Part shown: positions 1 through 6,053 of the stretch, piece by piece | Layout of the letters: every line of letters begins with the position of its first letter | Position numbering within the stretch: position 1 is the first letter of the stretch | Origin: Clostridia bacterium | GTDB lineage: Bacteria; UBA6262; WVXT01; JAUXBS01 | Direction: 5' to 3' | Length of the DNA: 6,053 bases | Assembly: GCA_030618495.1 (NCBI GenBank) | Contig: JAUXDE010000101.1 | Span: forward strand, 1 to 6,053 | Translations under genes and position numbers: made by a program | The notes under the pieces: generated by a model | What the model was told of the DNA's origin: nothing | Seen by the model: only the letters and a program-made list of their open reading frames with translations | The model's database searches: none

Positions 1-1343
1 TTTCTCTTACGAAAGAGCTTGCCATCAGGCAGGCGAGGGAGGCGGATAAAAAGATTTCGGAGGGCGGCGATACGGGAATACTGGCGGGTGTGCCGGTGCT
101 TATCAAGGATAACATCAACGTGAAGGGCGTAAAAACAACGTGTTCTTCGAAAATACTTCATAATTTTATCTCACCTTACGATGCCACGGTAACGGTGAAG
201 TTAAGGGATGCGGGCGCCGTGCTTATCGGCAAGTCGAATCTTGACGAGTTTGCCATGGGCTCCTCAACGGAAACTTCACATTTTGGCACAACAAGAAATC
301 CATGGAACCTGGACTGCGTTCCCGGCGGGTCCAGCGGCGGGGCTGCCGCGGCTGTGGCTGCGGGGCAGACCGTTCTTGCAATCGGGTCTGATACGGGCGG
401 GTCCATCAGGCAGCCGGCGTCGTTTTGCGGCGTTGTGGGGCTTAAGCCCACTTACGGGCGTGTTTCAAGGTACGGTCTTGTGGCATTTGCATCATCACTA
501 GACCAGATAGGCCCCGTTACAAGGGATGTCACCGATTCTGCCCTGTTGTTGAACGTGATTGCCGGACACGATAAGAAAGATTCCACATCCGTTGACCTGC
601 CTGTTCCCGATTATACGAAATCCCTTGAAAACAATGTGAAGGACGTTAGAATCGGTATGCCGAAAGAATACTTCAGCGAAGGATTGGACAAAGGGGTGGA
701 GAAGGCGGTGAGGGAGGCCGTAAAACTGCTGGAAAGCATGGGGGCAAAGGTTATGGAGGTTTCACTGCCCCATACCGAGTATGCCGTTGCCGCTTACTAC
801 ATTATTGCGCCCTCGGAGGCAAGTTCCAACCTCGCGCGTTACGACGGGGTGAAATACGGGTACAGGACTTCGGAGGAAGATCCCGGCCTTTCACTGATAG
901 ATGTTTATAATAAAACGAGAGGGGAAGGTTTTGGGCAGGAGGTTAAGAGGAGGATAATGCTCGGTACGTACTCCCTTTCATCAGGATACTACGATGCCTA
1001 TTACCTGAAAGCGCAGAAGGTGAGGACCCTGATTAAAAGAGATTTTGACGAGGTATTTAAAAAAGTTGATGTTATAATAACCCCCACTGCTCCAACGACG
1101 GCTTTCAGGGCTGGGGAAAAGATGGAAGACCCGCTTAAAATGTACCTGTCGGATATATACACTATTTCAGCAAACCTTGCCGGTATTCCGGGCATTTCCA
1201 TCCCGTGCGGTTTTGACGGGGGAGGAATGCCGATAGGCTTGCAGATACTGGCAAAGCCGTTTGATGAAGAGACCATATTTAAAGTGGCTTACAGTTACGA
1301 ACAGAGTACCGAATGGCACCGCAAACAACCGAAATTAGGATAA
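1..1343 (+). CDS. gatA: Aspartyl/glutamyl-tRNA amidotransferase subunit A (5'-truncated by window edge)
   Basis: GatA is the amidase subunit of GatCAB. It hydrolyses glutamine and passes the ammonia to GatB to convert Glu-tRNA(Gln) or Asp-tRNA(Asn). The reading frame (codons from position 3) is open to the window edge, with 446 codons visible against a usual length of about 485, so roughly 40 N-terminal residues are missing. A GTG at 90 is internal, not a start: homologous sequence continues upstream and the catalytic Lys lies only five codons after it. The amidase-signature Ser-cisSer-Lys triad is complete: Lys in VLIKDN (codon 105-107), cis-Ser in PGGSSGG (330-332) and the nucleophile Ser in DTGGS (402-404). 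The [13 protein letters not shown] block and the C-terminal [18 protein letters not shown] block are also typical of GatA. The stop TAA is at 1341-1343 and gatB follows after 10 nt. No frameshift or missing residue is seen. Confidence 0.97.
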
Positions 1344-1353
1344 TGGAAATCTA

Positions 1354-2802
1354 ATGGAAAAGTACAGGGTGACGATAGGCCTTGAAGTTCACGCGCACAT
1401 AAAGACTGTGTCCAAGATATTCTGCGGATGTTCGACTGAATTCGGGGCTGAACCCAATACCCATACCTGTCCCGTGTGCATGGGTATGCCCGGCGTACTG
1501 CCGGTGCTGAACAAAAAAGTGGTGGAGTACGGCATAAGAGCGGCAATTGCCACGAACTGCAGCGTAGCGCCTTATTCTATATTCGCCAGGAAAAACTATT
1601 TTTACCCTGACCTGCCGAAGAACTACCAGGTTTCCCAGTACGAAAAACCCCTTGCCGAAAACGGGTTTATAGAAGTAACGGTTGAAGGGGAGAAGAAAAA
1701 GATAGAAATACTCAGAATCCATCTTGAAGAGGATGCCGGGAAATCAATTCATGATATGTGCGAAGGCAGCCTTGTTGATTTTAACCGTACCGGCACGCCC
1801 TTGATGGAAATCGTTACCACGCCCTGCATTAGCAGCCTGGCGGAAACGCAGGAATACCTTAAGACCCTGAAGAGCATACTGCAGTACCTGGGTGTTTCCG
1901 ACTGTGATATGGAAAAGGGTTCGCTGAGATGCGATGCCAATATATCCGTGAAGCCCGCGGGAGAAGAGGGGCTGGGAGTAAAAACAGAGGTCAAGAATAT
2001 GAACTCCTTCAAGGGCATACAGCGGGCGCTGGAGTACGAGTCAGAAAGACAGATAGAAGTGCTTGAGGGCGGCGGGAAAATCCACCAGGAAACCAGGCTC
2101 TGGGACGAAAAGGCGGAAAAGACTTTTTCAATGCGCTCCAAGGAAGAAGCTCATGATTACAGGTATTTTCCTGAACCGGACCTTGTCCCAATCGTGGTTT
2201 CAGAGAAGTGGAAAGAAGAGGTGTTAAAGACACTGCCGGAATTGCCCCGGGCGCGCCGTAAGAGGTTCATAAATAATTACGGTCTTTCGGATTATGATTC
2301 GAAGATATTGACCGCGGAGAAGGCGCTTGCCGATTACTATGAGGATTGCCTGAAGAAAGTAAAGGATGTTTCCGGGGATAAAAAGTTTTGCAAAACCGTT
2401 GCGAACTGGATTATGGGCGACCTGATGGGGCATCTTAACGAAGAGAACAAGTCCGTAGAAGAATCCCCCGTATCTCCGGAAATGCTTGTCGATATGATTG
2501 AACTAATCAACAAAGGGACGATATCGGGCAAGATTGCTAAGACGGTGTTCGATGATATGTATAAGACCGGTAAAGCCCCCGCGGATATTATAAAGGAAAA
2601 AAACCTGGTACAGGTTTCGGATGAGGGGGAGATAATAAAAATCATTAAAGAAGTGATAGGGGAAAACCCGGCATCGGTTGAAAGTTACAGGAAAGGCAAA
2701 GAAAAGGCAATCGGATTTCTCATAGGGCAGGTTATGAAGAAAAGCAAGGGCAAGGCAAATCCCGCTGTTGTAAACAGGATTTTAAAAGAGCAATTAAAGT
2801 AA
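1354..2802 (+). CDS. gatB: Aspartyl/glutamyl-tRNA amidotransferase subunit B
   Basis: GatB binds the misacylated tRNA, activates its side-chain carboxylate with ATP and amidates it with ammonia from GatA. At 482 residues it has full family length. The N-terminal cradle/kinase domain (about 1-290) contains the GLEVHAH motif (9-15), a zinc-binding cysteine set (C24, C26, C39, C42, the last two in CPVC), HLEEDAGK (123-130), VDFNRTGTPLMEIV (142-155) and YFPEPDLVPI (271-280). The remainder is the helical domain and the YqeY-like C-terminal tail that contacts the tRNA elbow. The start ATG at 1354 begins the conserved YRVTIGLEVH segment. The ribosome-binding site is weak: AGGA at 1337-1340 is 13 nt away and TGGA at 1344-1347 is 6 nt away, so translational coupling to gatA, which ends 10 nt upstream, is likely. 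Start and family assignment are firm. Confidence 0.97.
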   Translation: MEKYRVTIGLEVHAHIKTVSKIFCGCSTEFGAEPNTHTCPVCMGMPGVLPVLNKKVVEYGIRAAIATNCSVAPYSIFARKNYFYPDLPKNYQVSQYEKPLAENGFIEVTVEGEKKKIEILRIHLEEDAGKSIHDMCEGSLVDFNRTGTPLMEIVTTPCISSLAETQEYLKTLKSILQYLGVSDCDMEKGSLRCDANISVKPAGEEGLGVKTEVKNMNSFKGIQRALEYESERQIEVLEGGGKIHQETRLWDEKAEKTFSMRSKEEAHDYRYFPEPDLVPIVVSEKWKEEVLKTLPELPRARRKRFINNYGLSDYDSKILTAEKALADYYEDCLKKVKDVSGDKKFCKTVANWIMGDLMGHLNEENKSVEESPVSPEMLVDMIELINKGTISGKIAKTVFDDMYKTGKAPADIIKEKNLVQVSDEGEIIKIIKEVIGENPASVESYRKGKEKAIGFLIGQVMKKSKGKANPAVVNRILKEQLK

Positions 2803-2804
2803 AA

Positions 2805-2819
2805 AGGGGTCAGACCCCT
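2805..2819 (-). terminator. GC-rich palindrome, likely intrinsic terminator of the minus-strand receiver gene
   Basis: A perfect inverted repeat, AGGGGTC/A/GACCCCT, lies in the 39-nt gap between the convergent ends of gatB and the receiver gene. Read on the minus strand, the G+C-rich hairpin is followed at once by TTTT (2804-2801), the classic form of a Rho-independent terminator, and starts 22 nt after the receiver gene's stop. Read on the plus strand, the hairpin is followed by GCAAGTTTTG, a much poorer U tract, so termination of gatB here is less certain. The run of Ts overlaps the gatB stop codon region. The same palindrome core may also be a dispersed repeat rather than a purpose-built terminator. 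Confidence 0.65.
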
Positions 2820-2841
2820 GCAAGTTTTGAGGAATCAGTTG

Positions 2842-3216
2842 TCAGGTCTTCTTTTTTAATATCGAATTTACCTTCTCCAATAGTTCTTCCATTTCAAAGG
2901 TTTTCGGCATGAAATAACTCGGACCTTTTGGTTTTAGCGTTTCATACATGGTTTCGTCTTTTACCTTTGCCGTCATGAATATTACGGGAATGTTTATAAA
3001 TCTGTCAGTGTTTTTCAGTTTTCCAACCGCCCTGTAGCCGCTGAGGCCGGGCATTATGACATCGGCAATGATAAGGTCGGGCTCAAGGGTTTTGCCTGTT
3101 TCCACGAGTTGCGCGCCGCTATCAGCGGTTGTCACGCTGTACCCTTCCATTTCAAGGGCTTCCTTTATACCGTTTCTTATGTCTATTTCATCATCGGCAA
3201 GAAGTATTTTTTTCGG
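2842..3216 (-). other. C-terminal canonical receiver (REC) domain
   Basis: This region encodes residues 405-528 of the double-receiver protein. All five conserved receiver positions are intact (D412, D413, D456, T486, K509), in the usual spacing. It should therefore bind Mg2+ and accept phosphate from a histidine kinase. It is placed at the extreme C-terminus, so nothing follows it that could act as an output domain; any output must come from the linker, the N-terminal pseudo-receiver or protein-protein contacts. Confidence 0.93.
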
Positions 3217-4428
3217 GGGAGTTTTTGTTTCATCTTTTTCGACAGGAGGTTTCTTTTGAAATGGTTTTTCCTTTTCAGGTTTTTCCCGGGACGGTTCTTT
3301 GCCGGGTATTTTTGTTTTTAATCCGGAGTCCTTCTTTTTTGTTGTTTTTTCCTTTTTGGATTCTTCGGTTTTCTCTATTTGCCCCGGTGTTTTGGTTTCC
3401 AGTCCGGAATCCTGCTCAAATCTGATGATTTCCATCGGTTTGGCTTCGGCCGGTTTTGCTTCCGTTTTGGCTTCAGCTGGTTTGGCTTCCGGTTTTGCTT
3501 CAGCCGATTTTGCTTCCGGCTTGGCTTCAGCCGGTTTTGTTTCCGGTTTGGCGGGTTTCCCGGATAATTTCTTTTCTTCCGCGCTGTCCTTTTCATCTTT
3601 GGCGGAGGCGGATTTTTCAGGCTGCTCTTCGTGTTTGACGGTTTCTATAGGCGTGTCCGCAGTGATTAACATCTTATCGATAAGTTCCCTGGATTTTTCC
3701 AGGTTGTATTTTTTTTCGTCCCCGGGTTTTCCTTCAAGGAGGTCGTCTATAAGTGATTTTGCTTTCAAAACCGCGCCTTCTTCTTTATCATTCGGAACAA
3801 TCTTGCCTTCTTGCGGCTTTTCGGTATCCGGAGGGGATGTTTTTTCGGGTTCTTTCTTTGTTTCAGGGGGTTTTTTTATATTATTCTGTACGGTGGAGGG
3901 TTCCCGGGAAGGCGCTTTTTTCGCTTCAGGGGGGGGTGTTGTTGTTGTCTTTGAATCTTTACGGGGAGAAGCGCCCTGTACGATATCGTCCCAGGAGGGC
4001 AGGGAAGTTTTATCTTCTTTTTCCGCCGCGTTTTTTGGGGCGGGTTTCAGCTCCCCTGTAAGTGTTTTCACTGAGGATAAAAGTTCTTTTCTGAATGACG
4101 GCCTGGATAATTCAAGAAGAAGGTTGTCCTTGACGATTTCGGACATTTTTATTTTAGACCCCGGTGGCAGTGAAACCACTGATGGTAAAAGAAGGATTAT
4201 CGGAACTGCGGTTTTTTCCGGCTTGCCTTCTTTTATTTTGTGATACGCCGCAAGGTTTGCGGGAGAGAAGGACATGATTATTAAATCGGGCTTCAATTCT
4301 ACGGATTTATAGGTTAATGATATACCGCTTGCCGCTTCAATAAATTCCAGGCCATATCCTTCAAGGCATTTTTTTATTGAGTCGCGGATTTCTATATCGT
4401 AAGAGGCGATTAAGACCTTTTTTACCAT
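2842..4428 (-). CDS. Double-receiver response regulator-like protein (pseudo-receiver, long disordered linker, canonical receiver)
   Basis: A 528-residue cytoplasmic signalling protein with no visible signal peptide or membrane segment. Residues 405-528 form a canonical CheY-like receiver: acidic pair D412/D413, phospho-acceptor D456 in PDLIIADVIMPGLSG, T486 in FMTA and K509 in MPKTF. Residues 1-125 have the same fold pattern (KKVLIASYDIEIRDSIKKCL, then PDLIIMSFS), but the acidic pair is S9/Y10, the acceptor position is S53, the Thr is L81 and the Lys is R109, so it should not be phosphorylated. Residues about 126-404 are rich in Lys, Glu, Pro, Ala, Ser and Thr, probably disordered, with internal repeats and two short amphipathic helices near 217-264. 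No DNA-binding, GGDEF or other output domain is present. The start is supported by GGGAG at 4442-4438, 9 nt before the ATG. It is divergent from greA and a histidine kinase. Its partner and output are unknown. Confidence 0.88.
   Translation of the reverse strand: MVKKVLIASYDIEIRDSIKKCLEGYGLEFIEAASGISLTYKSVELKPDLIIMSFSPANLAAYHKIKEGKPEKTAVPIILLLPSVVSLPPGSKIKMSEIVKDNLLLELSRPSFRKELLSSVKTLTGELKPAPKNAAEKEDKTSLPSWDDIVQGASPRKDSKTTTTPPPEAKKAPSREPSTVQNNIKKPPETKKEPEKTSPPDTEKPQEGKIVPNDKEEGAVLKAKSLIDDLLEGKPGDEKKYNLEKSRELIDKMLITADTPIETVKHEEQPEKSASAKDEKDSAEEKKLSGKPAKPETKPAEAKPEAKSAEAKPEAKPAEAKTEAKPAEAKPMEIIRFEQDSGLETKTPGQIEKTEESKKEKTTKKKDSGLKTKIPGKEPSREKPEKEKPFQKKPPVEKDETKTPPKKILLADDEIDIRNGIKEALEMEGYSVTTADSGAQLVETGKTLEPDLIIADVIMPGLSGYRAVGKLKNTDRFINIPVIFMTAKVKDETMYETLKPKGPSYFMPKTFEMEELLEKVNSILKKKT
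3301..3411 (-). repeat. Spaced direct repeat in linker (DSGLxTKxPG motif)
   Basis: Two copies of a ten-residue motif lie in the linker of the double-receiver protein: DSGLETKTPG at residues 340-349 (3382-3411) and DSGLKTKIPG at residues 367-376 (3301-3330), 27 residues apart. Each is followed by a Lys/Glu-rich stretch. Similarity is also visible in the DNA (shared TCCGGA and CCGG elements), which suggests a diverged internal duplication rather than chance. Confidence 0.6.
3436..3531 (-). repeat. 27-bp tandem coding repeat (9-residue Ala/Glu/Lys/Pro unit)
   Basis: About 3.5 imperfect copies of a 27-bp unit encode residues 300-331: AEAKPEAKS, AEAKPEAKP, AEAKTEAKP, then AEAKP. Each unit contains two nearly identical halves (AEAKP and EAK-P/S). 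The repeat stays in frame and the DNA copies differ mainly by single bases. Such Ala/Lys/Pro/Glu repeats usually form extended, highly charged spacers. Copy number may vary between strains by replication slippage. Confidence 0.8.
4054..4428 (-). other. N-terminal degenerate pseudo-receiver domain
   Basis: This region encodes residues 1-125 of the double-receiver protein. It aligns well with the C-terminal receiver of the same protein at its start (KKVLIASYDIEIRDSIK against KKILLADDEIDIRNGIK) and at the third strand (PDLIIMSFS against PDLIIADVI). The phosphorylation residues are replaced: S9 and Y10 for the acidic pair, S53 for the acceptor Asp, L81 for Thr and R109 for Lys. The hydrophobic strand pattern is preserved, so the fold is probably intact and used for binding rather than phosphotransfer. 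Confidence 0.75.
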
Positions 4429-4451
4429 TTTATAAAACTCCCGTAAGACAT

Positions 4452-4481
4452 ATTATACTTTTTTAGCAAAATATATCACAA
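4452..4481 (-). promoter_or_regulatory. Sigma-70-type promoter for the double-receiver gene
   Basis: On the minus strand a perfect TATAAT (4457-4452) lies 18 nt downstream of TTGTGA (4481-4476, 4 of 6 matches to the -35 consensus). Transcription would start near 4445, giving a leader under 20 nt that begins just before the GGGAG ribosome-binding site. A perfect TTGACA at 4488-4483 is also present but would be 25 nt from this -10; at 17 nt it would pair only with the poor TAAAAA. Confidence 0.6.
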
Positions 4482-4487
4482 TTGTCA
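4476..4487. promoter_or_regulatory. Imperfect palindrome over the receiver-gene -35 region
   Basis: TCACAATTGTCA is a 12-bp inverted repeat with one mismatched symmetric pair, centred on CAATTG. It covers the proposed -35 of the minus-strand promoter, a position where a dimeric repressor could block RNA polymerase. This is a candidate operator only; a 12-bp AT-rich palindrome can arise by chance. Confidence 0.3.
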
Positions 4488-4516
4488 AATGGAAAAGCGG
4501 GAAATGGAAAAGCGGG
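4487..4516. repeat. Perfect tandem 15-bp direct repeat between divergent promoters
   Basis: AAATGGAAAAGCGGG occurs twice, head to tail and without mismatch (4487-4501 and 4502-4516). It lies directly upstream of the minus-strand -35 region and 27 nt upstream of the greA -35 box. It does not code for anything in view. Two adjacent copies spaced about 1.5 helical turns apart could be regulator binding sites, or a recent slippage duplication. Confidence 0.75.
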
Positions 4517-4543
4517 GCAGATTTTTAATTTCTAAACATTTCC

Positions 4544-4572
4544 TTGACAAACCGCTATTCCTGTAATATATT
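4544..4572 (+). promoter_or_regulatory. Strong sigma-70-type promoter for greA and the downstream kinase gene
   Basis: TTGACA (4544-4549) and TATATT (4567-4572) are separated by exactly 17 nt, matching 11 of 12 consensus bases. Transcription would begin near 4580, giving a leader of about 32 nt. The surrounding AT-rich stretch (4561-4595) fits a promoter. No terminator is visible between greA and the kinase gene, so both are probably read from here. Confidence 0.8.
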
Positions 4573-4611
4573 ATATTAATATCAAATATAAAAACACAAA
4601 GGAGACAGCCA

Positions 4612-5085
4612 ATGGCAAAAGAGAACGTCTATATGAGCAGGAAGGGTTATGAGAAATTAAGGAATAAGTTAATGGAATTAAAAAGTACAAGACCTGAACT
4701 TTCAACGGAAATAGAGGTTGCCAGGGAGAAGGGGGATTTAAAGGAAAACGCGGAGTACCACGCCGCGAAGGAAGCCCTGATGCATTTACAGGGCAGGATA
4801 GCTACCCTGGAAACCAAACTGCGCAATGCCAGGATGATTGAAGATGAAAACCTGCCGTCTGATACGGTGTACATCGGGGCGAGTGTAGGATTGAAGAACG
4901 TCAGGACGGATGAAGACCTGGTATGGGTCCTGGTGTCAGCCGACGAGGCGGACATAACCGAAGGAAAGATTTCAATTGAATCCCCGATGGCGCAGGGACT
5001 CCTGGGCCACAAGGCGGGGGACGTGGTGAAGATTACCGTTCCGGCGGGAGTCATGGAATACAAGATAATAAAGATATCAAGGTAA
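4612..5085 (+). CDS. greA: Transcription elongation factor GreA
   Basis: GreA inserts into the secondary channel of backtracked RNA polymerase and stimulates cleavage of the extruded 3' RNA, letting elongation resume. At 157 residues it has the normal length. Residues 1-78 form the antiparallel coiled coil, with the tip motif GDLKENAEYHAAKE at 41-54 containing the acidic residues D42 and E45 that coordinate the catalytic Mg2+. Residues about 82-157 form the FKBP-like C-terminal domain, with the typical SPMAQGLLGHKAGD (124-137) and VPAGVMEYKI blocks. The start is supported by AAAGGAG (4598-4604), 7 nt before the ATG. It has its own near-consensus promoter, is divergent from the double-receiver gene and is followed after 38 nt by a histidine kinase gene. 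GreB is less likely given the tip sequence and C-terminal motifs. Confidence 0.96.
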   Translation: MAKENVYMSRKGYEKLRNKLMELKSTRPELSTEIEVAREKGDLKENAEYHAAKEALMHLQGRIATLETKLRNARMIEDENLPSDTVYIGASVGLKNVRTDEDLVWVLVSADEADITEGKISIESPMAQGLLGHKAGDVVKITVPAGVMEYKIIKISR

Positions 5086-5123: not shown

Positions 5124-6053
5124 ATGAAGCTGGAGAATAGAAAGGAAATAATCAGTATACTAAAAATTCATTTGAGAGTCCGGGTCGTGGTTATTGCTGT
5201 CGGATATTTGATAGTATTTATAATGATGGCGCTGGGCATCGGTATTTCTTCCGGAAAAGTAGGTATATTCACGGGATTAGCGCTGGCATTTTACGTTATT
5301 TTAAGATTGATTATTACTTTTAAACGGATACATGTTTCAGTTAAATACTTCATTAATGTTTTTGACGTTCTTCTAACAACCTATGCCATTGATATCACCG
5401 GCGGTCTTGACAGCCCTTTTTTCATGATTTATTTTATTTTACCCCTGATAGGGGGGTTTTCCCATACCAGCAGGAGAATGGTATTATTCAGCTGGAGTAT
5501 TCCGATAGTCGTATATCCGGCATATATTATTTTCTTGCAAAAATTCGATTTTACAGGTGGGGATATCGGTGTTCTTGTTTCCAGGGTTGTGTTTATATTC
5601 ATGGTTGGGCTGATAAGCAATTACTACCAAAAAATCATGTTAGACGAAAAAGAAAAAGTTAAAAAGGCAAATGAAGAAATAAAAAAGATGAACCAATCAC
5701 TGGAAATGCTCGTGGAAATAAGAACCCAGGAATTGATAAACACCCAGGAGCAGCTGATACAATCGGAAAAAATGGCGGCGGTCGGCCAGCTTGCGGGCGG
5801 GACTGCTCATGAATTGAATAACCCGCTTACGGTTATCCTGGGGCAGGCGCAGTTTTTATTGAAACAGCCCCAGGAGTACGGGGAAACGAAGAAAGGCCTC
5901 CTTGAAATAGAGAAATACACGAAGCGGTGCAAAGGAATAATACTGAATTTACTCGGGTTTTCCCGGCAGTACAGCATGAAGGAAGAGAAATTCAATATTG
6001 AGGACGTGATAAATAATGCAATAGAGATTTCAAGCAATCAGTTGAAAATGAAA
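5124..6053 (+). CDS. Membrane-bound sensor histidine kinase (3'-truncated by window edge)
   Basis: The frame is open from ATG 5124 to the window end, exactly 310 codons. Residues 1-18 are a basic cytoplasmic leader. Hydrophobic segments follow near 19-38, 46-66, 76-90, 99-112, 119-138 and 147-166, giving a multi-pass (about six-span) sensor with almost no extracytoplasmic domain. The [10 protein letters not shown] sequence (91-100) resembles the GG-x-x-SPF motif of PilS/RegB-like membrane sensors. Residues 170-215 are a charged heptad-like coiled coil. The HisKA dimerization domain has its H-box at 219-239 (AVGQLAGG, then [13 protein letters not shown]) with phospho-acceptor H229. The ATP-binding HATPase domain lies beyond the window. 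It follows greA by 38 nt with no terminator, so co-transcription is likely. The ligand is unknown. The divergent double-receiver protein is a possible phosphorylation target, by proximity only. Confidence 0.93.

Follow-up and report, generated by a model that had tools for sequence, protein, structure and literature searches.

The window, by which we mean the whole stretch of DNA analyzed here (contig G000:C141, 6,053 bases, from an assembly of 1.69 Mb with a completeness of 98%), encodes a protein of 528 amino acids comprising an N-terminal pseudo-receiver, a long linker, and a canonical C-terminal receiver. We propose, at a probability of about one half, that this protein is an output-less two-receiver response regulator turned into a single-input adaptor resembling FrzS, and that the genus split a two-input ancestor into two paralogues. 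The protein is encoded on the minus strand (2842..4428; stop codon at 2842-2844, coding sequence at 2845-4428), and an ortholog with the matching layout was found in the congener G001. The open reading frame on the minus strand is real, and the plus strand of the same interval contains 20 stop codons. We set aside a long plus-strand frame at 3299-4243 as a probable by-product of the low-complexity linker read in antisense.

Architecture of the protein and its locus

The C-terminal receiver (residues 405-528; 2845..3216, minus strand) was matched by the Pfam model Response_reg (PF00072) over residues 408-520 with an E-value of 4.5e-25. It possesses D412, D413, D456, T486, and K509, so that the claim of the earlier note that this receiver keeps every phosphorylation residue holds. 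K509 is followed by T510 in place of the usual K-P motif, and the domain carries YETLKPxGPSYF, a motif of the family as judged from a search that covered the six genomes of the phylum. The domain search found no DNA-binding or enzymatic domain in the 528-residue protein, in agreement with the absence of an output domain reported before.

The N-terminal domain (residues 1-128; 4045..4428, minus strand) received no Pfam match, including that of PF00072, and was recognized by BLASTP, a local receiver profile, and an AlphaFold2 model. In the BLASTP comparison, residues 1-127 aligned with the N-terminal receiver of a tandem-receiver protein in the sister family (see below) with an E-value of 6e-17 and 33% identity, and a profile built from the receivers of the phylum matched the domain with an E-value of 8.7e-16. 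Searches against the PDB retrieved receivers, among which the FrzS chains were present and ranked below many canonical receivers. Structure prediction, which the earlier note had proposed as a check, yielded a domain model with the receiver-like order of strands and helices, a mean pLDDT of 82.6, and structural Z-scores of about 13 against DivK, YycF, and PhoP; as four of the five AlphaFold runs were poor (pLDDT 40-54), the details of the model beyond the fold, such as a missing beta5, were left unused. The elements of the N-terminal domain agreed in a full-length model built from two sequences, with no canonical N-terminal receiver in the input, albeit the confidence of this model was low outside the receivers (pLDDT 50.5, pTM 0.30). 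S9/Y10, S53, L81, and R109 aligned with D9/S10, D53, T83, and K102 of the sister-family receiver. All five active-site residues at the DD, D, T, and K positions are thus gone, and the residues named in the earlier note are correct. Judged from the alignment and the model, residues 1-128 are a receiver fold devoid of catalytic residues, namely a pseudo-receiver.

The linker spans residues 129-404 (276 amino acids; 3217..4044, minus strand) and comprises 20% K, 16% E, and 13% P, with 43% of the residues charged. It is predicted to be disordered, the pLDDT being under 50 across residues 129-401, and is 42% identical to its counterpart in the congener. The description of a charged, low-complexity linker of about 280 residues therefore stands, but the linker is not featureless, as three islands are conserved in the congener. 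Island 1, LPSW[DN]DI (residues 143-149; 3982..4002, minus strand), coincides with a short predicted helix, and no second copy of LPSWDDI was found across the genome. Island 2 (residues 218-251; 3676..3777, minus strand) reads GA-KAKSLIDDLLEGKP...EKS-ELID, in which KAKSLIDDLLEGKP represents 14 consecutive residues identical in the congener with EKS.ELID behind, and coincides with two predicted helices. The helices of both islands are those of the low-confidence full-length model. Island 3, P[MV]EIIRFE (residues 331-338; 3415..3438, minus strand), was delineated from the congener alignment. A 27-bp tandem repeat of 4.3 copies (3436..3552, minus strand), encoding a (P)AEAKPEAK array, is absent from the congener. 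The linker of the G001 protein (L045 241-1917, minus strand) bears extra stretches resembling AK-LI--L--GKP, NAKPLIKDLPGLKP and NAKLLVENLLRGKP, beside KAKSLIDDLLEGKP; at the sequence level, these stretches hint at a repeated docking peptide.

The gene constitutes a separate, divergent unit. On one side, gatA (3-1343, plus strand, 5' end open) and gatB (1354-2802, plus strand, convergent with the 528-residue protein gene) were named by sequence and gene order without a family search. On the other side, greA (4612-5085) is divergent from the gene and is followed by the start of a gene for a membrane histidine kinase with a HisKA domain (5124..6053, plus strand), which is cut by the contig end. 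The copy of this kinase in G001 is complete and has a HATPase domain, and the order of the gene, greA, and the kinase is preserved in this genome. Two candidate regulatory elements on the minus strand were recognized solely as matches to consensus: a putative sigma-70-like promoter, TTGTGA-18-TATAAT, directly upstream of the gene (4452..4481), and a terminator-like palindrome, AGGGGTCTGACCCCT / AGGGGTCAGACCCCT, with a T-rich tail in the interval that separates the gene from the convergent gatB (2805..2819). The palindrome lies just beyond the stop codon of the gene on the minus strand, while its T-rich tail points towards gatB; it occurs in three copies in the genome and is absent from the five remaining genomes sampled from the phylum. 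A perfect 15-bp direct repeat, AAATGGAAAAGCGGG (two copies; window 4487-4516), lies where the promoters of the gene and greA diverge.

Sister-family relatives and constraint within the genus

The phylum was sampled by six genomes in two genera. Three genomes of the sister family (G002, G003, and G005) possess a homologue of 272 amino acids, in which tandem receivers, both matched by PF00072, are joined by a short linker. The N-terminal receiver of these proteins keeps D9, D53, T83, and K102, but its second acidic position is occupied by S10; the C-terminal receiver keeps the DD, D, S, and K residues. The tandem gene is preceded by a dCache-HAMP-PAS histidine kinase gene and one encoding a LysM/FecR protein. 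The absence of the tandem gene in G004 is not meaningful, because the contig there stops within the LysM gene. In G005:C6 (L043), the end of the tandem gene and the downstream genes are doubled (5528-5980 and 7688-8140; also 2909-4942 and 6530-7102), with a second C-terminal receiver at 23167-23535 of the same contig; this doubling may be genuine or may have arisen during assembly.

We analyzed a tree of 65 receivers over 121 columns, in which many other forks were left open. The N-terminal domain of the window protein grouped with the sister-family N-terminal receivers and the N-terminal receiver of a paralogue in the same genome with support of 99/100, while the C-terminal receivers of the genus grouped with those of the sister family with support of 97/47. 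Together with the shared YETLKPxGPSYF motif, the tree indicates that both domains are orthologous to those of the sister-family tandem protein. The identity between the window protein and the sister family amounts to 47-50% for the C-terminal receiver and 32-35% for the N-terminal domain. These relatives suggest that the 528-residue protein was once a pair of working receivers.

The comparison within the genus was made with one congener genome, G001, so that the dead N-terminal receiver is known from two sequences. The ortholog (L045, 559 amino acids) shares the same layout, and all five substitutions in the N-terminal receiver are fixed, implying that the layout is not a product of chance; the conservation of S9/Y10/S53 raised in the earlier note is thus seen in the single congener available. 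In the half of the pseudo-receiver from beta1 to alpha3 (residues 1-67; 4228..4428, minus strand), 63 of the 67 residues are identical (94%) with a dN of 0.029, and the synonymous sites are saturated. Residues 68-128 are 62% identical (dN 0.293), the C-terminal receiver 83% (dN 0.099), and the dN of the linker is 0.527. For comparison, the dN between the two genomes is 0.093 for GatA, 0.126 for GatB, 0.147 for GreA, and 0.336 for the N-terminal part of the kinase. Residues 1-67 are therefore the most constrained stretch measured at this locus, and their identity over saturated synonymous sites argues that the dead domain is strongly selected. Within the ortholog gene, a pair of G001 contigs (L045 207-507 and L046 1-301) share 301 bases at 97% identity; their coverages are 274 and 42, and they possibly represent two strains assembled apart.

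The second tandem-receiver protein of the genome

A second tandem-receiver protein of 255 amino acids is encoded at 2346-3110 of G000:C178 (L064) on the minus strand, with a sensor kinase gene on one side and that of a PhoB-like regulator on the other. The kinase gene (3156-4595, minus strand), behind which the paralogue gene lies, encodes sCache, HAMP, HisKA, and HATPase domains, and this neighborhood resembles the arrangement in the sister family. The paralogue in G001 (G001:C161) is 81% identical to the G000:C178 protein. The N-terminal receiver of the paralogue is intact and bears 48-52% identity to its sister-family counterpart, while the C-terminal domain is 20-32% identical to the sister-family C-terminal receiver. 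The latter domain keeps the D and K residues, with the acidic pair being E-N in G000 and E-D in G001, and the T replaced by F or L; from these residues, we regard the domain as eroded, but not certain to be dead. In profile comparisons, it is matched best by the C-terminal receivers of the family, although by a modest margin, four of them scoring from 26 to 20 bits and the fifth 17.4 bits, while the best other receiver scored 17.6 bits.

In the two proteins of the genus, the retained receivers are 47-52% and the eroded ones 20-35% identical to the sister family, and the two erosions occurred at the opposite ends; the erosion is thus complementary. We tentatively propose, as a history that we hold to be somewhat less probable than its negation, that an ancestor whose two receivers could both be phosphorylated was duplicated and each genus copy lost the opposite receiver. 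A two-input integrator would thereby have been divided into two single-input proteins, and the dead receiver of the window protein would have been re-fixed as a binding module with its kinase-facing helix copying that of the live partner. The proposed duplication, drawn from three tandem lineages, may have come before or after the two families split. If true, this history would be a naturally occurring example of complementary degeneration within response regulators.

Proposed function and known systems

The earlier note offered the function of a scaffold or a phosphate-relay adaptor. The former fits the constraint on the dead domain and the linker islands, the partner being putative; the latter is weakly supported at best, as the dead receiver cannot take phosphate from the live one and the genome appears to lack an HPt domain. 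Under the adaptor model proposed above, a histidine kinase, possibly the conserved neighbor at 5124, would phosphorylate D456, while the pseudo-receiver would hold a fixed protein partner, as that of FrzS does. Phosphorylation of the C-terminal receiver may alter its binding, and the tether would bring a phosphorylation-dependent partner to the fixed one, with the linker islands potentially serving as further docking peptides. Each of the two paralogues into which the genus may have divided the ancestral two-input protein would retain a different receiver. Against the adaptor model, the kinase at 5124 is in divergent orientation with greA in between, and is therefore a candidate only.

The two receivers may instead dock on one and the same histidine kinase, the dead one anchoring or buffering the kinase dimer while the C-terminal receiver takes the phosphate. 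The alpha1 helix of the pseudo-receiver (IEIRDSIKKCL) resembles that of the C-terminal receiver in the same protein (IDIRNGIKEAL) with a BLOSUM score of 30, a value reached by 8 of 1,596 receiver pairs (0.5%). Once this protein and its ortholog in G001 are set aside, the best alpha1 score was 17, and the sister-family N-terminal receivers scored 12; against the ortholog, the alpha1 of the pseudo-receiver scored 50 with the N-terminal domain and 25 with the C-terminal receiver. At the alpha1 positions that presumably confer kinase specificity, taken after RR468, the pseudo-receiver has E/I/S/C and the C-terminal receiver has D/I/G/A. However, this comparison was post hoc and covers 11 residues, and gene conversion or chance may explain the resemblance. 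Furthermore, the other pairs with scores of at least 30 are often receivers grouped in the tree or encoded by adjacent genes, so that the score can mirror relatedness rather than shared docking. We consider this docking possible but unlikely.

A phosphate sink, in which the C-terminal receiver drains a kinase and the remainder is a stabilizing or localizing tail, would accord with one live receiver in a protein with no output domain, but leaves the near-invariant residues 1-67 and the conserved linker islands unexplained, and we regard it as quite improbable. Stand-alone receivers such as Spo0F act as phosphorelay intermediates, and this general precedent could be extended to a phosphorelay from a kinase through the C-terminal receiver to another protein. 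Nevertheless, no HPt domain was detected in the 98%-complete genome with the Pfam model, which may miss divergent phosphotransferases, while the same search was positive in 8 of 14 control genomes. A phosphorelay is thus very unlikely. That the gene is decaying, with the N-terminal receiver as a remnant on its way out, is barely credible despite the loss of five catalytic residues and the repeats that expanded the linker, because residues 1-67 are held more tightly over saturated synonymous sites than GatA or GreA and the gene order is maintained in the congener.

Two further readings were dropped. One, in which the protein is fed by FrzE/CheA, was abandoned for the absence of HPt from the genome. 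The other, a role in MglA/MglB polarity, was abandoned since no match to Robl_LC7 (PF03259), which we take to be the family of MglB, was found in the genome.

Among known systems, the pseudo-receiver of FrzS binds SgmX through alpha3-beta4-alpha4 (PMC12632262; PMC11580455). Like FrzS, the 528-residue protein is output-less and has an N-terminal receiver fold that lacks the critical phosphorylation residues, which in FrzS is used for protein binding. On the other hand, FrzS has a large C-terminal coiled coil in place of the predicted disordered linker and live receiver, and the part most conserved here is beta1-alpha3, implying that the interface would differ. FrzZ of Myxococcus xanthus serves the Frz system as its output response regulator and is phosphorylated by FrzE (PMC3441718). 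It shares two receivers, a linker, and the lack of an output domain with the protein studied here, and the sister-family homologues are the closest to it in layout. Both receivers of FrzZ are regarded as phosphorylatable. FrzZ is fed by CheA, whereas the N-terminal receiver of the window protein is dead and its genome has no detectable HPt. PleD of Caulobacter comprises a receiver, a pseudo-receiver, and a diguanylate cyclase (PMC12632262), and phosphorylation of the live receiver changes its contacts with the dead one; in contrast to PleD, the window protein has no enzymatic output, the live and dead domains are in the reversed order, and a 276-residue tether lies between them. RomR of Myxococcus (receiver, unstructured linker, and conserved C-terminal region; PMC3441718) likewise has a live receiver and another conserved region at the two ends of an unstructured linker that is long and lineage-specific, but this other region is not a receiver.

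Pairs of live and dead receivers (PleD), output-less dual receivers (FrzZ), and live receivers on unstructured linkers (RomR) are therefore already known. Pseudo-receivers themselves are common: one count puts them at about 6% of the receivers in bacteria (PMC12632262), and the Asp is missing from about 4% of receivers overall (PMC4395418). Among the pseudo-receivers surveyed, the first position is non-acidic in about 20% and the second in about 80%, and each of D, T, and K is retained by about 65% of them (PMC12632262), placing the loss of all five residues at the far end of the range and not as new in kind. Our literature search for a receiver-linker-receiver protein with a pseudo-receiver retrieved nothing closer than FrzS, FrzZ, PleD, and RomR, and no description of a dead N-terminal receiver tethered by 276 residues to a live C-terminal receiver with no output, or of a complementary paralogue, was found in the literature searched. 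A scan of genome contigs with the protein returned the congener and weak receiver matches only. Outside the phylum, the best among the matches listed for the pseudo-receiver profile in 386 genomes was a receiver frame of ordinary length (G190, 150 amino acids). In plasmid records, the best ten places matched the C-terminal receiver only, and 0 of 1,822 covered 80% of the query.

How pseudo-receivers work and originate is regarded as an open question (PMC12632262). The dead receiver found here can be compared both with a sister-family relative that appears phosphorylatable and with a paralogue from its own genome in which the opposite receiver has eroded. With a mechanism that we infer, the interest is a specialist one, and such a comparison would offer a ready test of what persists once phosphorylation is lost.
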